A DNA stretch of 64,000 bases from Candidatus Poseidonia sp. (GCA_022426155.1 JAKMEE010000005.1:62001-126000), one strand, 5' to 3'. Counted from the first letter of the stretch, positions 3,417-37,741 are shown. Made by a program: numbers and translations. The notes: a model not told the origin generated them from the letters alone.

Positions 3417-6161
3417 ATGTCAATCGTCATCATCGCCGAGAAACCAAGCGTTGCTGAAGACTTGGCTAAGGTGCTTGGAGTATCCAAAAAAGCAGCGACA
3501 CACTGGGAAAGTGAGGACATTATCATCACGTGGGCAATCGGCCATTTGTTGCAACTAAAATACATGGATGATTACGATGTGGAGTTCAAAAATTGGAGAA
3601 AATCCATCGAGCGGCTCCCCTATGTCCCAGATACATTCCAATACAAACCAATTGGTGGACGAAGTAAGACCCAACTCCAAGCAATCTTGAAACTCATCAA
3701 AGATAAAAACGTTACAGAAATTGTCAATGCTTGTGATGCTGCACGCGAGGGTGAACTGATCTTCAGAACGATTGTTCAACATTCCAAAGTCAAAACTACA
3801 ACGAGTCGAATGTGGATGCAATCCATGACGTATGATGCAATGCTAGATGCTTTTGAGACCCGTAAACAGGGTGAAGAATACCAAAACTTGAGTGATGCGG
3901 CCTATGCACGGAGTTATGCTGATTGGATTATTGGTATGAACGGTTCAAGGGTTGCTAACACCTTCCTTCCAAGAAAGAAAAATGAAAAATCTCCCAACTC
4001 ATTGGGCCGTGTTCAAACAGCAACGCTGGCATTGGTGGTTGAGCATGAATTAACCGTGCTCAGTCATGTACCGGTTCCATTCTGGCAATTGAACGCTGAA
4101 TTTACTGCTGGCGATGCTACTTGGACTGGGCGCTGGGAACGTGAAAACCATCGCGATGATAAAAACCGACCAGAATGGAAAGCCCATAGGATCATTGAGG
4201 CATCTGAAAAAGAAGCCATTGAGGCAACGTTGAAAACCGAAACAAAGGCAACCGCTTCTGAAACCTCAAGAACCAAGAAAGAACAACCTCCTCTCAATTT
4301 CGATTTGACCAACCTCCAGAAGCGCGCAAACGGTATGTTTTCATGGTCAGCGAAGAGAACTCTGAGCGTTGCACAAGATTTGTATGACAAGTTCAAATTG
4401 ACCACATATCCTCGAACTGATTCACGATATCTTCCAGAAGATATGCATGAAACCGTGGCCAAAACCTTGGACCAATTGGGACAACAATCTGATTACAAGG
4501 TTCATACAGACCGCCTCAAGAAAGACGGTTTGCAGAATGCGTCTCGGAATTTCAACAACTCAAAGGTGAGCGACCACTATGCCATTGTCCCCACAGGTCA
4601 GTCCCCACCAACAAATCTAGGTGCCGACCATCAAAAATTGTATGACCTCATCGTTCGAAATTTCTTGGCATCTTGGCATCCGAATTCAGAATGGAATGTG
4701 GTCAAGCGTAGGGCACAAATTGGTGAATATTCATTTTACAAAGAAGTCGAGACATTACAAATTGCTGGATGGCGTGCGGTCATGTCGAAAAAGGACAAAA
4801 TTCCAAATGGTTGGGGAGCACTTCCATCAAATCCATGTGCGGCAATGCTCAATGGTTTCGAATTCGAGGAAGAGAAATCAAAGCCTAAAAACCGACTTAA
4901 AGAAGCGAGTTTACTTCAATTGATGGAATCAGCTGGAAAGCATATTGATGATGAAGAAATGGCAGATGCAATGAGAGAGAAAGGTTTGGGAACCCCCGCA
5001 ACTCGAGCGGATACGATTGAAAAATTGATTGATAGAAACTACATTCGTCGTTCAAGAAATGGTACAATTAGTGCAACATCGCACGGTATTCGAATGATCG
5101 ATGTTCTACGTCGTATTCCTGTGGAATGGATTACATCACCGGAACTCACTGGTGAGATGGAAGCATCCTTGCTTGCTGTGCAGCGTGGAGATGAGCCTCA
5201 GCAGGATTACATGAACAAAATCATTGACCGTACCACTGAAATGGTTGTCAAAATACGAGACCATGACCGCTCAGTGTTGTATGAAGGTGAACCATCTCTA
5301 GGAGATTGCCCTGCTTGTAGCGCAGAGGTACTTGAAACCACATTTTCTTATCAGTGTGTCAAGAATGAAGGGAGAGACAAAGGATGTAAATTCGTCTTCT
5401 GGAAGGACACATCAGGTCGATGGTTTGACCGAATGACTGCAGGTCGTTTGATTGAAACCAAAAAGTTGGATGAGTTACACGGTTTTTTCAGTCAAAGTGG
5501 AGAGGGATATGAAACAAGCGTCGAATTACTGAATGATGGAAAAGTGAAATCAAAGGGGAGCGGTGAATCTACGTCCGATGCGAGCAATGAATCCCTTTGC
5601 CCATGTCCTGTTTGTGATCACGGCACCATTCGCATAACAGAAATCAATTACAGTTGCGATCATGAAGAATGCAGTTTCAGAGGTTTGTCAAAGGAAATGT
5701 GCAAACGGCCAATTTCAGTTGAGGAAGCCAAGGAAATATTCACCAATGGTCGATCTTCCCTCTTGGAAGATTTCACTTCCAAACGTAACAGGCCGTTCAA
5801 TGCTTTCCTGGTATTAGAGAAGAACCGAATTAGTTTTGATTTCCCCCCAAGGGAAGCAAAAAACGCAAAGAAATTCCCAGTTGAGGAAGGCGTAGTCGGT
5901 ATCTGCCCAACACACAAGACCAACATCATTGAAACTGAAACTCACTATACGGCGGAAACAAGAGACACTGGATGTAAAATTCATGTGGAACGTTGTATGT
6001 CAAAACGGGATATATCTCGGGCTGAAGCCAAAACATTGGTTGAGAGTCGTGAATTAGGACCTTTCGATGATTTCGTGTCAAAGAAGACAGGTAATCCATT
6101 TGCTTCGGTGTTGTATTTCAGGAAAAATGAAAGCGTTGCCTACAAGTTCGCCAAGAAGTGA
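3417..6161 (+). CDS. Type IA DNA topoisomerase (topoisomerase III/TopA-like)
   Basis: 914 aa from the ATG at 3417 that opens MSIVIIAEKPSVAEDL, the Toprim strand; an in-frame ATG at 3336 adds 27 residues with no family match. The Toprim domain also has ACDAAREGELI. The active-site Tyr is Y331 in TTYPRTDSRYL, and KGLGTPATRADTIEKL follows, as in topoisomerase III-type enzymes. It cuts and rejoins single strands to relax negative supercoils or unlink recombination intermediates. After residue ~620 come three Toprim-associated C-terminal repeats: the first two with four-Cys zinc motifs (CPAC... and CPVC...), the third beginning CPTH and lacking a full zinc site. The YxxPF(N/A) tail signature recurs as RPFNAF and NPFASV. 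Confidence 0.93.
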   Translation: MSIVIIAEKPSVAEDLAKVLGVSKKAATHWESEDIIITWAIGHLLQLKYMDDYDVEFKNWRKSIERLPYVPDTFQYKPIGGRSKTQLQAILKLIKDKNVTEIVNACDAAREGELIFRTIVQHSKVKTTTSRMWMQSMTYDAMLDAFETRKQGEEYQNLSDAAYARSYADWIIGMNGSRVANTFLPRKKNEKSPNSLGRVQTATLALVVEHELTVLSHVPVPFWQLNAEFTAGDATWTGRWERENHRDDKNRPEWKAHRIIEASEKEAIEATLKTETKATASETSRTKKEQPPLNFDLTNLQKRANGMFSWSAKRTLSVAQDLYDKFKLTTYPRTDSRYLPEDMHETVAKTLDQLGQQSDYKVHTDRLKKDGLQNASRNFNNSKVSDHYAIVPTGQSPPTNLGADHQKLYDLIVRNFLASWHPNSEWNVVKRRAQIGEYSFYKEVETLQIAGWRAVMSKKDKIPNGWGALPSNPCAAMLNGFEFEEEKSKPKNRLKEASLLQLMESAGKHIDDEEMADAMREKGLGTPATRADTIEKLIDRNYIRRSRNGTISATSHGIRMIDVLRRIPVEWITSPELTGEMEASLLAVQRGDEPQQDYMNKIIDRTTEMVVKIRDHDRSVLYEGEPSLGDCPACSAEVLETTFSYQCVKNEGRDKGCKFVFWKDTSGRWFDRMTAGRLIETKKLDELHGFFSQSGEGYETSVELLNDGKVKSKGSGESTSDASNESLCPCPVCDHGTIRITEINYSCDHEECSFRGLSKEMCKRPISVEEAKEIFTNGRSSLLEDFTSKRNRPFNAFLVLEKNRISFDFPPREAKNAKKFPVEEGVVGICPTHKTNIIETETHYTAETRDTGCKIHVERCMSKRDISRAEAKTLVESRELGPFDDFVSKKTGNPFASVLYFRKNESVAYKFAKK

Positions 6162-31970: not shown

Positions 31971-33104
31971 TCATTCGTCCTCACTGAACAATGTGGCTTG
32001 TTTTGATACTGGAATTTCCAATTGCCCCAACCGGAAGCCGATCAAACGCACCCGCCCTTCCGATTGTACGTTCATTGCAAAGAGCGTTGAAGCGAGGCGT
32101 TGGAACACATCGAGTTCATCCATGGCCACTGGAATTGAACGACCACTGGTATGAGTCTCAAACCCCGTGTATCGTATTTTAACTTCGGCTAATCTCCCCG
32201 CGACACCCATGGAATGTGCTTTTTTCATGACCAAATCCACCAAGGAATTTAGTCGTTCCATCACCACTTCATGATTGGTTTGATCTCGCTCAAAGGTGTG
32301 CTCTTTGCCGATTGATTTACGACTTCGAATCGGACTGATTTCCTGACTGCTTTCACCTTCCAACACACGGATAAACCATTTTGAAAATCTCTCTCCTGTG
32401 ATACGTGCCAAGGCCAAATCACCCAAGGCATAGGCCTCATCTGCGTTTTCAAGACCCCATTCAGCCATCTGTGTCGAGCGTTTTGGACCTACACCTGGAA
32501 TCTCCCGAAGTGACCTTCCCTCAAAGAATTGAAGAATTTCATCTGGCAAGACACGAAAGATACCAAATGGTTTCCGAACTTCACTGCTCATTTTTGCAAG
32601 GATTCGCGTAGGACCAATTCCAAAAGATGCTGAGAGACCCACTTCATCCATGATGGCTTGTTGCATGGTTCGAGCTAATGCCAAGGCTTGATCCCAATCT
32701 CCTCCAATTTTCTCGGTGACATCCAAATATGCCTCATCAATGCTTGCTTGTTCAAACACATCTGCTTCTTCTCGTAAAATACTCATCACTTTCCGACTTG
32801 CCCGACTGTACAACCCTCGAGTACCTGAAATGTACCTGGCTGGACCGAAAGGTGCTGCAGGGCAACGCCTCCATGCTTCTGAAATCGGCATAGCTGAACG
32901 AATGCCGTAAGCCCTTGCTGCATAATTGCATGTTGAAACAATCCCCCGTCCTCTGCCCTGTTTTGGGTCAGAACCAATGATGAGAGGTATGGAGTCGTCA
33001 AACCCATGATGAAGGACTTCAACTGCAGCAAAAAACGCATCTAAATCACAGTGAATCAGAATCCGTTGCTCTGACGGCAACGAATAGAGGGAATCTACTT
33101 CCAC
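31971..33104 (-). CDS. dinB: DNA polymerase IV (Y family, DinB/Dpo4)
   Basis: 377 aa, GTG start. Catalytic carboxylates D20 (HCDLDAFFAAVE) and D123/E124 (ASIDEAYLDVT) are present, as are YAARAYGIRSAM, the fingers SASFGIGPTRILAKMSSE, the helix-hairpin-helix REIPGVGPKRS and the little-finger domain (RSIGKEHTFERD). Performs error-prone bypass of lesions. The last residues, KQATLFSEDE, hold a QxxLF-like sliding-clamp motif. Divergent from the RecA-like gene 80 bp away; a B-family polymerase follows that gene, making a polymerase-rich locus. Confidence 0.95.
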   Translation of the reverse strand: MEVDSLYSLPSEQRILIHCDLDAFFAAVEVLHHGFDDSIPLIIGSDPKQGRGRGIVSTCNYAARAYGIRSAMPISEAWRRCPAAPFGPARYISGTRGLYSRASRKVMSILREEADVFEQASIDEAYLDVTEKIGGDWDQALALARTMQQAIMDEVGLSASFGIGPTRILAKMSSEVRKPFGIFRVLPDEILQFFEGRSLREIPGVGPKRSTQMAEWGLENADEAYALGDLALARITGERFSKWFIRVLEGESSQEISPIRSRKSIGKEHTFERDQTNHEVVMERLNSLVDLVMKKAHSMGVAGRLAEVKIRYTGFETHTSGRSIPVAMDELDVFQRLASTLFAMNVQSEGRVRLIGFRLGQLEIPVSKQATLFSEDE

Positions 33105-33184
33105 ATCTCATGACTTTCGCCAAAGGTGTTTGAACTTGGCGCTCTGAACACTTTCATTTTGAACGAGGGGTCTGGCAAATCATC

Positions 33185-34000
33185 GTGGAGTGTCTTCAAC
33201 GACCTCTGTTGTTGATGCAAATGAGAACTCTGACGGATCCTGTGAATACCCAACTCTTGACACGACTTGCGAATCGGTTTGATACCACACTCGTGGAACC
33301 TCAAGCAGGTCAAATCTACCATTTAGCAGGACCCGAAGTGGCTGGAAGAAGCATGCGAGTTATCGCTGAGCAATGGGTTGCAAGAGCCCTATCACGGGGA
33401 AGTGCTGTTCACTGGATTGATGGGGCCTGTCGAATTGACCCCTCTCGCTTCATACCCGTTTTACAACAACTAAACGCCTCACTCGAGACATGTTTGAGCA
33501 GCCTCTTTCTTAGCCGAGGGTTCACCCTCCATCAACTCGCTCGCCAAATTGAACGTTTGCCATCTGAGGTGGCAATCACTCGTGCACCCTTGATAGTGAT
33601 TGATGGGGTCCTCTGCATGCATCATGACAAGGAAATCTCAAGGATGGAATCTCGGTCCTTGTTTCGCCGACATATCGCCCTTCTTGCAAAAATGGTACAG
33701 CATCAGCATGTCGCTCTCATCTTGATCACTGAACAAAATCCAAGAGATGATCACCACGGCCGTTTATTGAGTAGCATCAAACATCACTCCCAAAATTATC
33801 TTGAAGGAAGTTGGAAGGGGAGGAGAAACAACAGAATGTTGTACTTACAACATCCCAAGAGTGGTTTAGGTGGCCTTTGGAACCCATCAAAGAGTCCACT
33901 ACAAACGCAATTTCAAATCCAAAACCCGAAATCCATCAACTCAAACTCGTGGCATCATCATCGACTTGAAGTGGTAGGACTCAAACAAATTCAGGATTGA
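33185..34000 (+). CDS. RecA/RadA-superfamily ATPase-like protein with altered Walker A
   Basis: 271 aa from a GTG at 33185; ATGs at 33215 and 33221 are alternative starts. Residues 49-56 read GPEVAGRS, a Walker A in which the invariant Lys is Arg. APLIVIDGVL (D140) fits Walker B, and VHWIDGACRIDPSRF resembles the strand-helix after Walker A in RecA/RadA. ALILITEQNP is in the place of the RecA sensor strand. So the fold is probably RecA-like with reduced or lost ATPase. The C-terminal ~70 residues are polar, Asn/His/Ser-rich and likely disordered. It is divergent from dinB and overlaps the convergent B-family polymerase by 20 bp, much like the ImuA-ImuB pairing in bacterial mutasomes. No functional proof. 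Confidence 0.65.
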   Translation: MECLQRPLLLMQMRTLTDPVNTQLLTRLANRFDTTLVEPQAGQIYHLAGPEVAGRSMRVIAEQWVARALSRGSAVHWIDGACRIDPSRFIPVLQQLNASLETCLSSLFLSRGFTLHQLARQIERLPSEVAITRAPLIVIDGVLCMHHDKEISRMESRSLFRRHIALLAKMVQHQHVALILITEQNPRDDHHGRLLSSIKHHSQNYLEGSWKGRRNNRMLYLQHPKSGLGGLWNPSKSPLQTQFQIQNPKSINSNSWHHHRLEVVGLKQIQD

Positions 34001-36431
34001 ATTCCAACAAGGACCGTTGCAAGCCAGCAGATTGAATGCTGGTTTCTGTCCATCCAAACGGGGCGAGTATGGCCCAAATCGCTCTCAAGGCCAGTGAACG
34101 ATAGTGTTGGATGCAGGGTTGGCCTAATGATGACTCACTGGTTTCAATTTCCTCGGATAAGACGACCCGGTCATAACTCACGCTAGCCAATATATCAATC
34201 ACAACGTACCTTATTTTTGTGCCTGGAAGGACCAAGTAGCCTCTTCTTCGCGCTCGCTCTAAAGCCGCATAGGTAAGATTTTTGACACGATAATCTGTCA
34301 AAGGCTTTGTCACTCTGCGAGTCAAAATAGCTTCTGAAAGATTCAATTCTCCTTTTTTCAGCCGATGAATTTCACTACGATACCAACTCAATACATCCCA
34401 TTGAGCACGAGTACTCGGAATGTTTCTGTCATTTATTTCACTCTCTTTTGCCAAAATAGTGAGTGCCGTTTGTTGCAAATTACGAATCCAAGGAGGAGAT
34501 GAATGTTGTCGCATCTCAATGCCCCGTATTTTGAACCCATTCTGTCCAAGACCCCAATATTTAGTGAGTGAGCCTGCCCCATGCATTCGACTCGGCAAAA
34601 AGGCAATGAAGGTGTAAATATCTTCAAACTCCAATGGGATTCCGACAATCTGGCTCACCTGTTCCGCAAATTCTAACGCCGCTGCATGCTGTTCTGGAGC
34701 TGTTCGCCCCAATCGATCGGAAAGCCAAACACAATCCACAATTGCATGCAAAACATCCCATCCCGACTGATGAGCTAATTCGATTGTAGTGAGCAAAATA
34801 TCTCGAGCCCAAGCGCAAATGGCCTCATGAGCTTCAATGCGCCCAAAACGTGCATTGCGATATCCTGTGTACCCAAAACAGGTCACTAACAACCATTTCA
34901 ATGCATTTTGCCGTAAATCGTAAGGGTCTCCCGGGCGACGGCGCAACTGTTTCAACTGCCGACGACGTTCAATCAAAGGAGCGACGACTCGGCCAAGGAA
35001 CCCCTGCGTACGGGCACATGTGTGCGTGTTCAATCCAGGAACTTGCAACGCCTTTGATTGCGTTTGAGGAAAAAGACCACTCCCCAAATGTTCTGCCAAT
35101 TGCCGATGACGAAATTCTTGTTCAGCAACTTCTGGATGAAGTGGGACAAAGCCAGAGGAATCTCCCGTCCGAGGAGGTTGACAACAAGCACAATTTAGAG
35201 TTTCAGGAGATATGTTTCTTGAAGCAATGATGCTTGGAAAGAGGCTAGCAAAATCCAACTCAATCACGGGGCCATGGAGTCCTGGCTGACTGTCCAAGTA
35301 AAGTCCACCTCGGTCAGCATGCAACAACTCCAGAGCAGTTTTTGTATCCTCGGGCCGATTCTTTTTCCAGGGTACGAGGACACCATCATCTAAAGCAACC
35401 CTCATTTGAATGGCACTGATCACTGACCCAGGAGACAAACGTGAAATTTCTTGAGCCGATTGTCTGGAATGGCGTGCCAACTCAAATAATCCAACAATTC
35501 CCCCCTCACGAACAATGAAACTGTTGTTCAAATCCAAGTGCAATCGCCCCTGGAGCAAATACGAGGCTGGTCTGTGAAGTGTTTGACCGTAGGAATGGAC
35601 CGTTTGAGCCGCCTTTGAGACGCTCAAGGAATCTGAGGTACGGCCAAGATGAAGGGGGGCATTCGTTTGTTTCGCCATTGACAAAAGAGCTGGAAAAAGA
35701 TGACGATCTCCTCCTTGAGTCAGCACAATATCGGGGTCCAATTCATTCATGATTGATTGAAACTTTACGAGAAAGGAACGAGCGGATTCACATTCACTTC
35801 GATGAATTTCACGAGACATCGTGAAGGATGGAGAAGGGGCAAACCCTTCCTGTTGAATGCTTTCAAATTCCAACCTCATGGGTTCATCATCATGAGAAAT
35901 AAAGCCCTTTGGATGTTTAAAATCAGCACTTAGGCGGATAATATGAAATGGAGGGAAATTTTCACCATTTTCACTCATCATTTGAAGAGAATGTAAGTGT
36001 TCTCCGTCCCAACGAACATACTGGAATAGTACGCAATCATGTTCATGCAGAAAGCGCTGAGCAACATGTGCATCAACGGAAAACAAAGAAAAACGGTGGA
36101 AATTTCCACGCGCTTCAATATGCTGGGCTAGCCCCTTCAGCCGATGGTGAAGGAGAACATCTATCTCCAGAACTTGATGAATTTCATAGGTATCCAATGC
36201 AAGACGTGCTTTCTTTTGCCGCATTCCACCGATGGAAAAACGCTGCTGAATTTCTGGTTGCTGGAGCCAATACAACAACTGTTCCAAATCCCTTGCACTA
36301 CCATGGACATGCAATGTAGGATGCCAGGGGACGGAACACCTATGGGCAACACCATCAATGTCAATTAGCCAAGCCAACATCTGTTGCCCTGCATGATCTG
36401 AATGGACATCCAGTAACCACCCATCAATCAT
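33981..36431 (-). CDS. Divergent B-family DNA polymerase (PolB2-like)
   Basis: 816 aa from ATG 36431, which overlaps the upstream stop by 8 bp and has AAGGAGAAG as binding site. Polymerase motif A is intact (ELDFASLFPS, D393). Motif B keeps its Lys (ALKWLLVTCFGYTGY, K512). Motif C reads IVDCVW: one of the two DTD aspartates remains (D566). The exonuclease looks broken: Exo I DxE reads EFE, Exo II has GGDRHLFP in place of NxxxFD, and no Exo III Tyr/Asp is visible. A GRLHLDL segment shared by archaeal PolBs is kept. This is not the replicative PolB type; it resembles the archaeal PolB2/Dpo2 group tied to damage tolerance. Residual synthesis is possible but unproven. Confidence 0.85.
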   Translation of the reverse strand: MIDGWLLDVHSDHAGQQMLAWLIDIDGVAHRCSVPWHPTLHVHGSARDLEQLLYWLQQPEIQQRFSIGGMRQKKARLALDTYEIHQVLEIDVLLHHRLKGLAQHIEARGNFHRFSLFSVDAHVAQRFLHEHDCVLFQYVRWDGEHLHSLQMMSENGENFPPFHIIRLSADFKHPKGFISHDDEPMRLEFESIQQEGFAPSPSFTMSREIHRSECESARSFLVKFQSIMNELDPDIVLTQGGDRHLFPALLSMAKQTNAPLHLGRTSDSLSVSKAAQTVHSYGQTLHRPASYLLQGRLHLDLNNSFIVREGGIVGLFELARHSRQSAQEISRLSPGSVISAIQMRVALDDGVLVPWKKNRPEDTKTALELLHADRGGLYLDSQPGLHGPVIELDFASLFPSIIASRNISPETLNCACCQPPRTGDSSGFVPLHPEVAEQEFRHRQLAEHLGSGLFPQTQSKALQVPGLNTHTCARTQGFLGRVVAPLIERRRQLKQLRRRPGDPYDLRQNALKWLLVTCFGYTGYRNARFGRIEAHEAICAWARDILLTTIELAHQSGWDVLHAIVDCVWLSDRLGRTAPEQHAAALEFAEQVSQIVGIPLEFEDIYTFIAFLPSRMHGAGSLTKYWGLGQNGFKIRGIEMRQHSSPPWIRNLQQTALTILAKESEINDRNIPSTRAQWDVLSWYRSEIHRLKKGELNLSEAILTRRVTKPLTDYRVKNLTYAALERARRRGYLVLPGTKIRYVVIDILASVSYDRVVLSEEIETSESSLGQPCIQHYRSLALRAIWAILAPFGWTETSIQSAGLQRSLLEFNPEFV

Positions 36432-36693
36432 CTGCAGCTTCTCCTTCCAATCGCTCCAAACGAAGTTCAAGTTTGTGAATACGCTGTGAGAGACCTAACA
36501 TCATCGACAGAAGGAGAGGATTCCAAGGATCATGGGCAGGCAGCATCCCTCCTGCTGCTCGGCGAGTTCTTACGTCATTGAGCAACACATCTAGCAGCAT
36601 TTGTTCATCCACTGGAAGTGCGCGACGGAACGGCCCCAACGCATGTAATTCTGCCTCAATTCTCGTACGCCATGGAAGGACACTTCGACCCAT
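36424..36693 (-). CDS. Small helical protein coupled to the PolB2-like gene
   Basis: 89 aa. No family recognised. The C-terminal third is a short amphipathic coiled coil (LSQRIHKLELRLERLEGE). Its stop overlaps the start of the polymerase gene by 8 bp, so translation is probably coupled and the two products may bind each other. The start ATG at 36693 is 64 bp after serA, which runs the same way. Confidence 0.7.
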   Translation of the reverse strand: MGRSVLPWRTRIEAELHALGPFRRALPVDEQMLLDVLLNDVRTRRAAGGMLPAHDPWNPLLLSMMLGLSQRIHKLELRLERLEGEAADD

Positions 36694-36757
36694 AGCCTAA
36701 GACTGAACATTCGGAAGACAGGCTTTGTGAAGACCCCTTTGCACAAACTGAAAGTGT

Positions 36758-37741
36758 TCACATGTGGGCACGGTTCACCACATAATCGCAGGGTCGTCCG
36801 TTCAGAATGTCCATCACATTGTTGATGATATCAATACCAACTCTAGCTTGGGCTTCAATGGTAGAGGCCCCAATGTGAGGTGTCCCATGAAAATGTGGAT
36901 GCTGCAAAAGTGGATGTTCGGGAGAAACTGGTTCAATTTCGAATACATCCAGAGCAGCCGTGGTTAGCTTACCTGACTCAAGGGCTTCTAAAACGGCTTG
37001 TTCATCGACGATTCCACCTCGTGCACAATTGATGATATGGTTGCCACATTCCGCACCATCCCGACCAATTTGGGGCATTGATGAAAGACGTTCAGCATTG
37101 ACCAAATGATGTGTTTCATCTGTGTAATTGCAATGGATGGAAAGATGAGTGCAGTTGGCAAAGAGAGCGTCAACTGTTTTGTGCAATCTCGTATTTTTTG
37201 ATTTAGCAATTTTGGGAGGCAAATAAGGGTCATAGGCATGGACTTCCATACCAATCGCTTGGGCAACATCTCCTACTGCCTGGGCAATACGGCCAAATCC
37301 AATCAGGCCGAGCACCTTTCCAGAAAGTTCCGAACCTTTGAGGGCTTTCTTTTCCCATTGGCCGTCTCTCAAGCCACGGTCTGCCCGTGGCAAATGACGG
37401 ATTGATGCCAACAGATGACCAATGGTTAATTCAACGACAGATTGGGTACTTGAGCGCGGTGCATTGACGACACTAATTCCTTGTTCACCCGCAGCTTTGA
37501 GGTCAATGTTGTCAACACCGACACCTGCACGACCAATGACAGATAATCGGTCACCTGAAGCCTGAATAACAGCCTTCGTCAGTTTGGTAGCGCTGCGAAC
37601 AATGATACCGTCAAATTCAGAGAGGCCCCCTTGAAGTAAATCCTGAGGAGAAATAGATGCGACAACGACTTCATGTCCCGCTTTTTCAAGAAGATGAACT
37701 GCTTTTGGGTCCATCCCATCGGTCACAGCAATCCTTGCCAT
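36758..37741 (-). CDS. serA: D-3-phosphoglycerate dehydrogenase, short form
   Basis: 327 aa, so lacking the C-terminal ACT regulatory domain of long SerA. First step of serine synthesis: 3-phosphoglycerate to phosphohydroxypyruvate with NAD. NAD fold GKVLGLIGFGRIAQAVG; catalytic Arg in INCARGGIVDE, Glu in DVFEIEPVSPEHPL and His in TPHIGAST. Substrate loop IVRSATKLT and GRAGVGVDNIDL. Other D-isomer 2-hydroxyacid dehydrogenases share these motifs, but the N-terminal VRSATKLTK and VGVDNID favour SerA. Confidence 0.88.
   Translation of the reverse strand: MARIAVTDGMDPKAVHLLEKAGHEVVVASISPQDLLQGGLSEFDGIIVRSATKLTKAVIQASGDRLSVIGRAGVGVDNIDLKAAGEQGISVVNAPRSSTQSVVELTIGHLLASIRHLPRADRGLRDGQWEKKALKGSELSGKVLGLIGFGRIAQAVGDVAQAIGMEVHAYDPYLPPKIAKSKNTRLHKTVDALFANCTHLSIHCNYTDETHHLVNAERLSSMPQIGRDGAECGNHIINCARGGIVDEQAVLEALESGKLTTAALDVFEIEPVSPEHPLLQHPHFHGTPHIGASTIEAQARVGIDIINNVMDILNGRPCDYVVNRAHM

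Follow-up and report, generated by a model that had tools for sequence, protein, structure and literature searches.

The locus at positions 31,971 to 36,693 of the window (the whole stretch of DNA analysed, 64 kb in length, in which all positions are counted) belongs to a Candidatus Poseidonia-type genome of Marine Group II, order Poseidoniales. It very probably encodes a PolB2 mutasome composed of the B-family polymerase PolB2, a non-catalytic RecA-like protein (iRadA) and the small protein PPB2, in an arrangement peculiar to these ocean-surface archaea. This assignment is made because the PolB2, RecA-like and PPB2 genes co-occur exactly, are constantly adjacent and were transferred together, and to that extent the initial annotation, which proposed a mutasome-type locus from the same polymerase, RecA-like protein and small helical partner, is borne out. 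The assembly it took to be newly seen is a published one, since the PolB2-iRadA-PPB2 mutasome was described in 2014 and 2025 (PMC4104785, PMC11791011). It has been put forward as a translesion polymerase of prokaryotes in which a B-family enzyme works with further subunits, and the evidence for the complex consists of models. New for Poseidoniales are the convergent gene order, transfer as a unit, the apparent hand-over of a clamp motif, an intact P-loop in some iRadAs and a promoter element at four genes, the last being the most interesting lead. Open reading frames (ORFs) for all four annotated genes were located at the places first given, and their arrangement is not due to chance, because it was found again in relatives. 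The features are as follows.

33981..36431, minus strand: PolB2 gene, 816 amino acids (aa) from ATG 36431; NF004418, motif C, ADRGG, Exo I loss, QRSLLEF
36424..36693, minus strand: PPB2 (arCOG07300-like), 89 aa, beginning MGRS; invariant M1, G2, R3 and R9; phmmer
33215..34000, plus strand: iRadA, Rad51/RadA fold, P-loop GPEVAGRS; AlphaFold, Foldseek, phmmer, alignment
36731..36760, minus strand: PPB2-PolB2 upstream element TGAACACTTTCAGTTTGTGCAAAGGGGTCT, core ACTTTC AGTTTG; motif and profile searches
33145..33173, plus strand: iRadA upstream element TGAACACTTTCATTTTGAACGAGGGGTCT, core ACTTTC ATTTTG; motif and profile searches
31971..33104, minus strand: DinB, Y-family polymerase, neighbour only; IMS, IMS_C
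36758..37741, minus strand: SerA-like dehydrogenase gene, left flank of the insertion site (context); adjoins DinB in cassette-free genomes

Subunits of the predicted mutasome

The polymerase is identified as PolB2 by its published sequence hallmarks, namely an altered motif C, a D(K/R) motif before motif A and exonuclease loss (PMC11791011). Its ORF matches DNA_pol_B (E 1.6e-21) and resembles B-family structures in structure comparison, and the closest matches in named genomes come from Poseidonia and Poseidoniaceae metagenome-assembled genomes (MAGs). Motif C reads IVD, whereas the replicative PolB encoded by this genome reads DTD, so that the first Asp of DxD is replaced, and IVD recurs in 52/52 Poseidoniales homologues. 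Motif A is intact and preceded by ADRGG, a D(K/R)-type motif. Exo I is lost, with SFDLE of the replicative PolB aligning with RLSAD in PolB2, although the alignment is weak in the decayed exonuclease domain; the degraded exonuclease and altered motif C reported initially were thus both recovered. The reading frame is open from TTG 36470 (ORF 33981-36470, minus strand), but the most likely start is ATG 36431 in the 3' end of PPB2 (ATGATTGA), from which the PPB2 stop and the PolB2 start overlap by 8 nt.

The RecA-like protein matches the Rad51 domain with 19 bits and carries the Walker A sequence GPEVAGRS, as the initial annotation had noticed. Its AlphaFold model adopts the Rad51/RadA core fold (predicted local distance difference test score, pLDDT, 86), for which Foldseek returned RAD51-family entries (best E about 3.5e-11), and phmmer matched the iRadA of canonical operons with E down to 1e-12. 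The RadA N-terminal domain is missing, the Walker A Lys is replaced by Arg in the alignment, and the catalytic Glu is gone (IDGA for IDTE), as in every iRadA that could be read; the true RadA of this genome is encoded elsewhere. The frame is open from GTG 33185 (ORF 33185-34000, plus strand). ATG 33215 is the most likely start because the first ~30 residues encoded from the GTG were modelled with low confidence and are absent from relatives. The gene overlaps PolB2 tail to tail by 20 bp and is separated from DinB by 80 bp counted from the annotated starts, both distances agreeing with those first given.

That this protein is a housekeeping RadB standing beside a polymerase by happenstance is highly improbable. 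RadB is indeed its best NCBIfam model and likewise lacks the RadA N-terminal domain, yet the score of 27.5 bits falls far below the TIGR02237 equivalog cut-off of 172.4, the gene occurs only in PolB2 genomes and always adjoins PolB2, and the protein matches the iRadA of canonical operons and has lost the catalytic Glu. RadB identity was therefore rejected, and the freely varying neighbourhood that the initial annotation associated with such a RadB gave way to a constant PolB2 neighbour. An intact GxxxxGK(S/T) P-loop was found in 22/42 iRadAs of Poseidoniaceae and in 0/28 others, this genome having GPEVAGRS; it is possible that some iRadAs bind ATP without hydrolysis.

The 89-aa protein starts with MGRS and contains Arg3 and Arg9. 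Since none of M1, G2, R3 and R9 varies among 39 homologues, it is identified from these N-terminal residues as PPB2/arCOG07300, and it matches PPB2 of canonical operons with phmmer E values of 5e-14 to 6e-6. In the described mutasome, PPB2 has about 90 aa and an N-terminal MGRT arm with Arg3 and Arg9 (PMC11791011).

A clamp-type motif, scored as (Q/K)xxLxx(F/Y/W) near the C-terminus, is represented in this PolB2 by QRSLLEF. Outside Poseidoniales it resides in iRadA (16/17) rather than PolB2 (2/16). In Thalassarchaeaceae, the second family of the order in the sample, both proteins often carry it (iRadA 8/11, PolB2 9/11), and in Poseidoniaceae it is found in 5/42 iRadAs and 22/42 PolB2s. A 'shuttling' clamp motif has been described (PMC11791011), and here the motif looks to have been handed stepwise from iRadA to PolB2, caught in passage between the subunits.

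These features are consistent with a model in which PolB2 acts as a B-family translesion polymerase of the extender type that lacks proofreading. The contact between PolB2 and its single iRadA subunit would resemble that between Rad51 subunits, a PPB2 trimer would sit on PolB2 with the MGR(S/T) arm reaching the polymerase cleft, and the C-terminal motif of PolB2 may serve as a tether to PCNA. PPB2 and PolB2 would share a message, the stop of the first overlapping the start of the second, and iRadA would come from the facing gene under its own promoter with the same upstream element. Since that element stands at both promoters, the two messages could be induced together, most likely after DNA damage. 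The DinB next door is possibly a separate inserter polymerase and not a subunit.

Several points weigh against this model. The heteropentamer (PolB2, iRadA and three PPB2) is predicted here from genes and single-chain models only. The PolB2 score of 401 bits against the archaeal type-B subfamily model NF004418 stays under its cut-off of 692. The PolB2, iRadA and PPB2 genes mostly share one orientation elsewhere (PMC11791011), whereas they do not form a single same-orientation operon here, and the operon argument of the literature is not directly applicable. Finally, several cassette sites in relatives lack an adjoining repair gene.

Conservation and transfer of the cassette

Of 59 relatives, many with incomplete genomes, 36 have a full PolB2, and exactly these 36 also have iRadA, always adjacent to it; neither gene was found in the remaining 23. 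Wherever the contig of a Poseidoniales locus reaches far enough, PPB2 immediately precedes PolB2. In all 54 Poseidoniales loci, iRadA faces PolB2 in convergent orientation. The 16 loci with both genes from other Thermoplasmatota are co-directional without exception, most often as iRadA-PPB2-PolB2, which makes the convergent arrangement a Poseidoniales trait. The main text of PMC11791011 mentions neither Poseidoniales nor DinB linkage. A search for a conserved neighbourhood, suggested by the initial annotation, thus found PolB2, the RecA-like protein and the small protein always together, but not DinB.

In the PolB2 tree (a quick search with support only from the Shimodaira-Hasegawa-like approximate likelihood ratio test, SH-aLRT) and in the iRadA tree, the cassettes of five Poseidonia genomes located at an OGT site group with genera g16/g17, whereas the DinB of this lineage (G001 and G028 in the tree) remains inside Poseidonia. 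These placements indicate that the three-gene cassette moved horizontally as a unit to the new site and that the recipients kept their own DinB. A cassette of rearranged but stable gene order has been moved between genomes of abundant uncultured archaea of sunlit water. At some sites away from SerA, its neighbour is a gene for OGT/MGMT, for a photolyase-amine-oxidase fusion or for SRAP, the last also described near polB2 (PMC11791011); several further sites have no repair gene. Viral carriage was considered and dropped when a single scan of viral contigs turned up no relative of PolB2.

Some individual loci deserve mention. The fusion, a photolyase N-terminal domain joined to a flavin amine oxidase (L220 6411-8756; orthologues L219, L232 and L233), adjoins the cassette in four Poseidoniaceae genomes. 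One of the 54 convergent loci, in a g16 genome, has two foreign genes, ceramidase-like and CDP-alcohol phosphatidyltransferase-like, between PolB2 and iRadA (L217 8762-11014). A second SerA-PPB2 end in a cassette-bearing MAG (L163, G015:C36) is probably contamination from a related strain.

DinB matches IMS (E 8e-37) and IMS_C and keeps the catalytic motifs DLDAFF and SIDEAYLD. It directly follows SerA in the cassette-free genomes G030 and G042 and in G001 and G028, where the cassette lies elsewhere; in G034, which has no cassette, the two genes are about 0.85 kb apart. The direct adjacency of SerA and DinB without the cassette implies that the cassette was placed between them. The initial annotation counted DinB as a fourth member of a lesion-bypass unit, in which it would be the inserter and the PolB2 complex the extender. 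Such membership is unlikely. DinB does adjoin iRadA in 25/37 cassette genomes, with a divergent intergenic region common to both genes, but it is present without the cassette in G030, G034 and G042 and was undetected in all six cassette-bearing Thalassarchaeaceae of the sample. Moreover, in one Poseidonia lineage DinB stayed at SerA when a foreign cassette arrived elsewhere, and the DinB gene on its own strand is absent from the matches of the element profile described below. DinB as a fixed component was hence rejected as a rule: its linkage is variable, its inheritance is separate from that of the cassette, and it is a neighbour in part of the group only.

The DinB-iRadA intergenic region of SerA-site Poseidonia contains a near-inverted repeat, TTGAACTTGATG...ATTCAGTTCAA (for example L095, about 4940-5080), whose DinB half, AAGTTCAAACAC, is kept in G001 and G028, where DinB directly follows SerA. 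The Poseidonia DinB C-terminus (window 31971-32030) has a conserved QTTLF/QATLF, shorter than the archaeal PCNA motif and bacterial-clamp-like; in other genera the C-terminus reads QxxLxx(F/Y).

An upstream element shared by four genes

The sequence TGAACACTTTCA(G/T)TTTG...GGGGTCT precedes both PPB2 and iRadA. A 17-base part of it occurs without mismatch exactly twice in this genome, and the two elements differ by one base in spacing. A profile trained on 27 elements was searched in 29 Poseidonia genomes at a threshold of E<=0.02 (a few further matches above 0.02 are left out of the tally). It gave 71 matches: 50 upstream of PPB2 or iRadA, 18 at a gene for a 187-190-aa protein and three at a 58-aa gene, the last two genes being outside the training set. 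In G010 and G021, in which no cassette was detected, the element still stands at the 187-aa gene. The ten best matches in 22 genomes of other genera fell at the 190-aa gene (five), iRadA (four) and the 58-aa gene (one). The element also persists at relocated cassettes.

The model of the conserved 187-190-aa protein (pLDDT 86) is a half beta-propeller with four blades. Its element lies at G000:C40:154719-154754 (L266), orthologues occur in Poseidonia and g16, and in the loci read the gene follows, on its downstream side, one for a TFB-type transcription factor. The element of the 58-aa gene lies at G000:C40:105221-105255 (L267); the product is conserved, basic, helical and without Pfam annotation, with orthologues at L269, L271, L273, L276, L281, L282, L284 and L285.

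The core resembles a tandem of ANTTTC, the hexamer to which Orc1-2 binds in the DNA-damage response of Sulfolobales (PMC5817253, PMC9738581). With at least 9/10 fixed positions, the tandem is present in 81% of 52 PPB2 upstream regions versus 1.4% of random windows, mostly 60-76 nt ahead of the start codon, and before iRadA in 35% versus 2.6%. In the window alone, the tandem with one mismatch occurs 21 times versus 11.5 by chance; because this excess is only mild, the tandem is meaningful only at its fixed place before the same genes. The genomes have two Cdc6/Orc1 genes each, and neither of those in this genome is among the profile matches, so no regulator is named.

The element may instead be a strong constitutive promoter or an unrelated operator whose likeness to ANTTTC is coincidental, an explanation to which we give roughly an even chance. 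It lies about 60-75 nt ahead of the start codon, a position expected of promoter elements; by our own estimate, the chance that a tandem hexamer fits ANTTTC in one phase or another, on either strand, is ~1%, and the link to the ANTTTC literature was made after the motif had been inspected. The hexamer is short, and at the SerA site the iRadA element of Poseidonia is mostly TTCAGTTCAA, both of which are weak points for the damage-element reading, as is the position of the Orc1/Cdc6 genes outside the matches. On the other hand, all 71 matches lie at just four genes, which argues against a general promoter, the relocated cassettes retained the element, and the same genes were met again in a second genus. 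The distribution suggests that the element marks a small gene set including the mutasome, possibly damage-induced. Going further, a Poseidoniales damage regulon comprising the mutasome, the half-beta-propeller gene and the 58-aa gene under a tandem ANTTTC, as a candidate Orc1-2-type element, is proposed tentatively. The element is a concrete candidate for such a regulon beyond Sulfolobales, among archaea whose damage control is poorly known, and if the proposal is true, two distant archaeal branches would have one damage-response element in common.

Comparison with known systems

The closest relative is the Dpo2-type mutasome of S. islandicus, for which Dpo2 biochemistry and genetics in Sulfolobales and a modelled complex are available (PMC8764526, PMC7390963, PMC11791011). 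Both have the three families with their hallmark residues, tight linkage, the PPB2/PolB2 overlap and a clamp-type motif, and a SRAP neighbour in some relatives is a further likeness. Unlike in that system, iRadA is convergent here instead of co-directional, the clamp motif is on PolB2 instead of iRadA, the P-loop is intact in half of the Poseidoniaceae iRadAs, and a tandem ANTTTC element stands at two promoters. This element shares its hexamer core and a similar distance ahead of start codons with the Sulfolobales damage element, but it is tandem, followed by GGGGTC and present at about four promoters per genome.

Among bacterial systems, the initial annotation compared the locus with ImuA-ImuB-DnaE2, in which a RecA-like gene, a Y-family gene and a specialised polymerase also lie close together. 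The comparison stands as an analogy; the polymerase here is B-family, whereas DnaE2 is C-family, and DinB keeps the catalytic motifs, unlike the dead ImuB, and is unlinked in some relatives. Escherichia coli Pol V (UmuD'2C-RecA) is the closer published parallel, although not homologous as a system: the combination of a polymerase, a RecA/Rad51-family subunit and a small oligomeric subunit has been argued to link the two (PMC11791011), with Pol V using a Y-family catalytic subunit, an active RecA and UmuD' in the place of PPB2.

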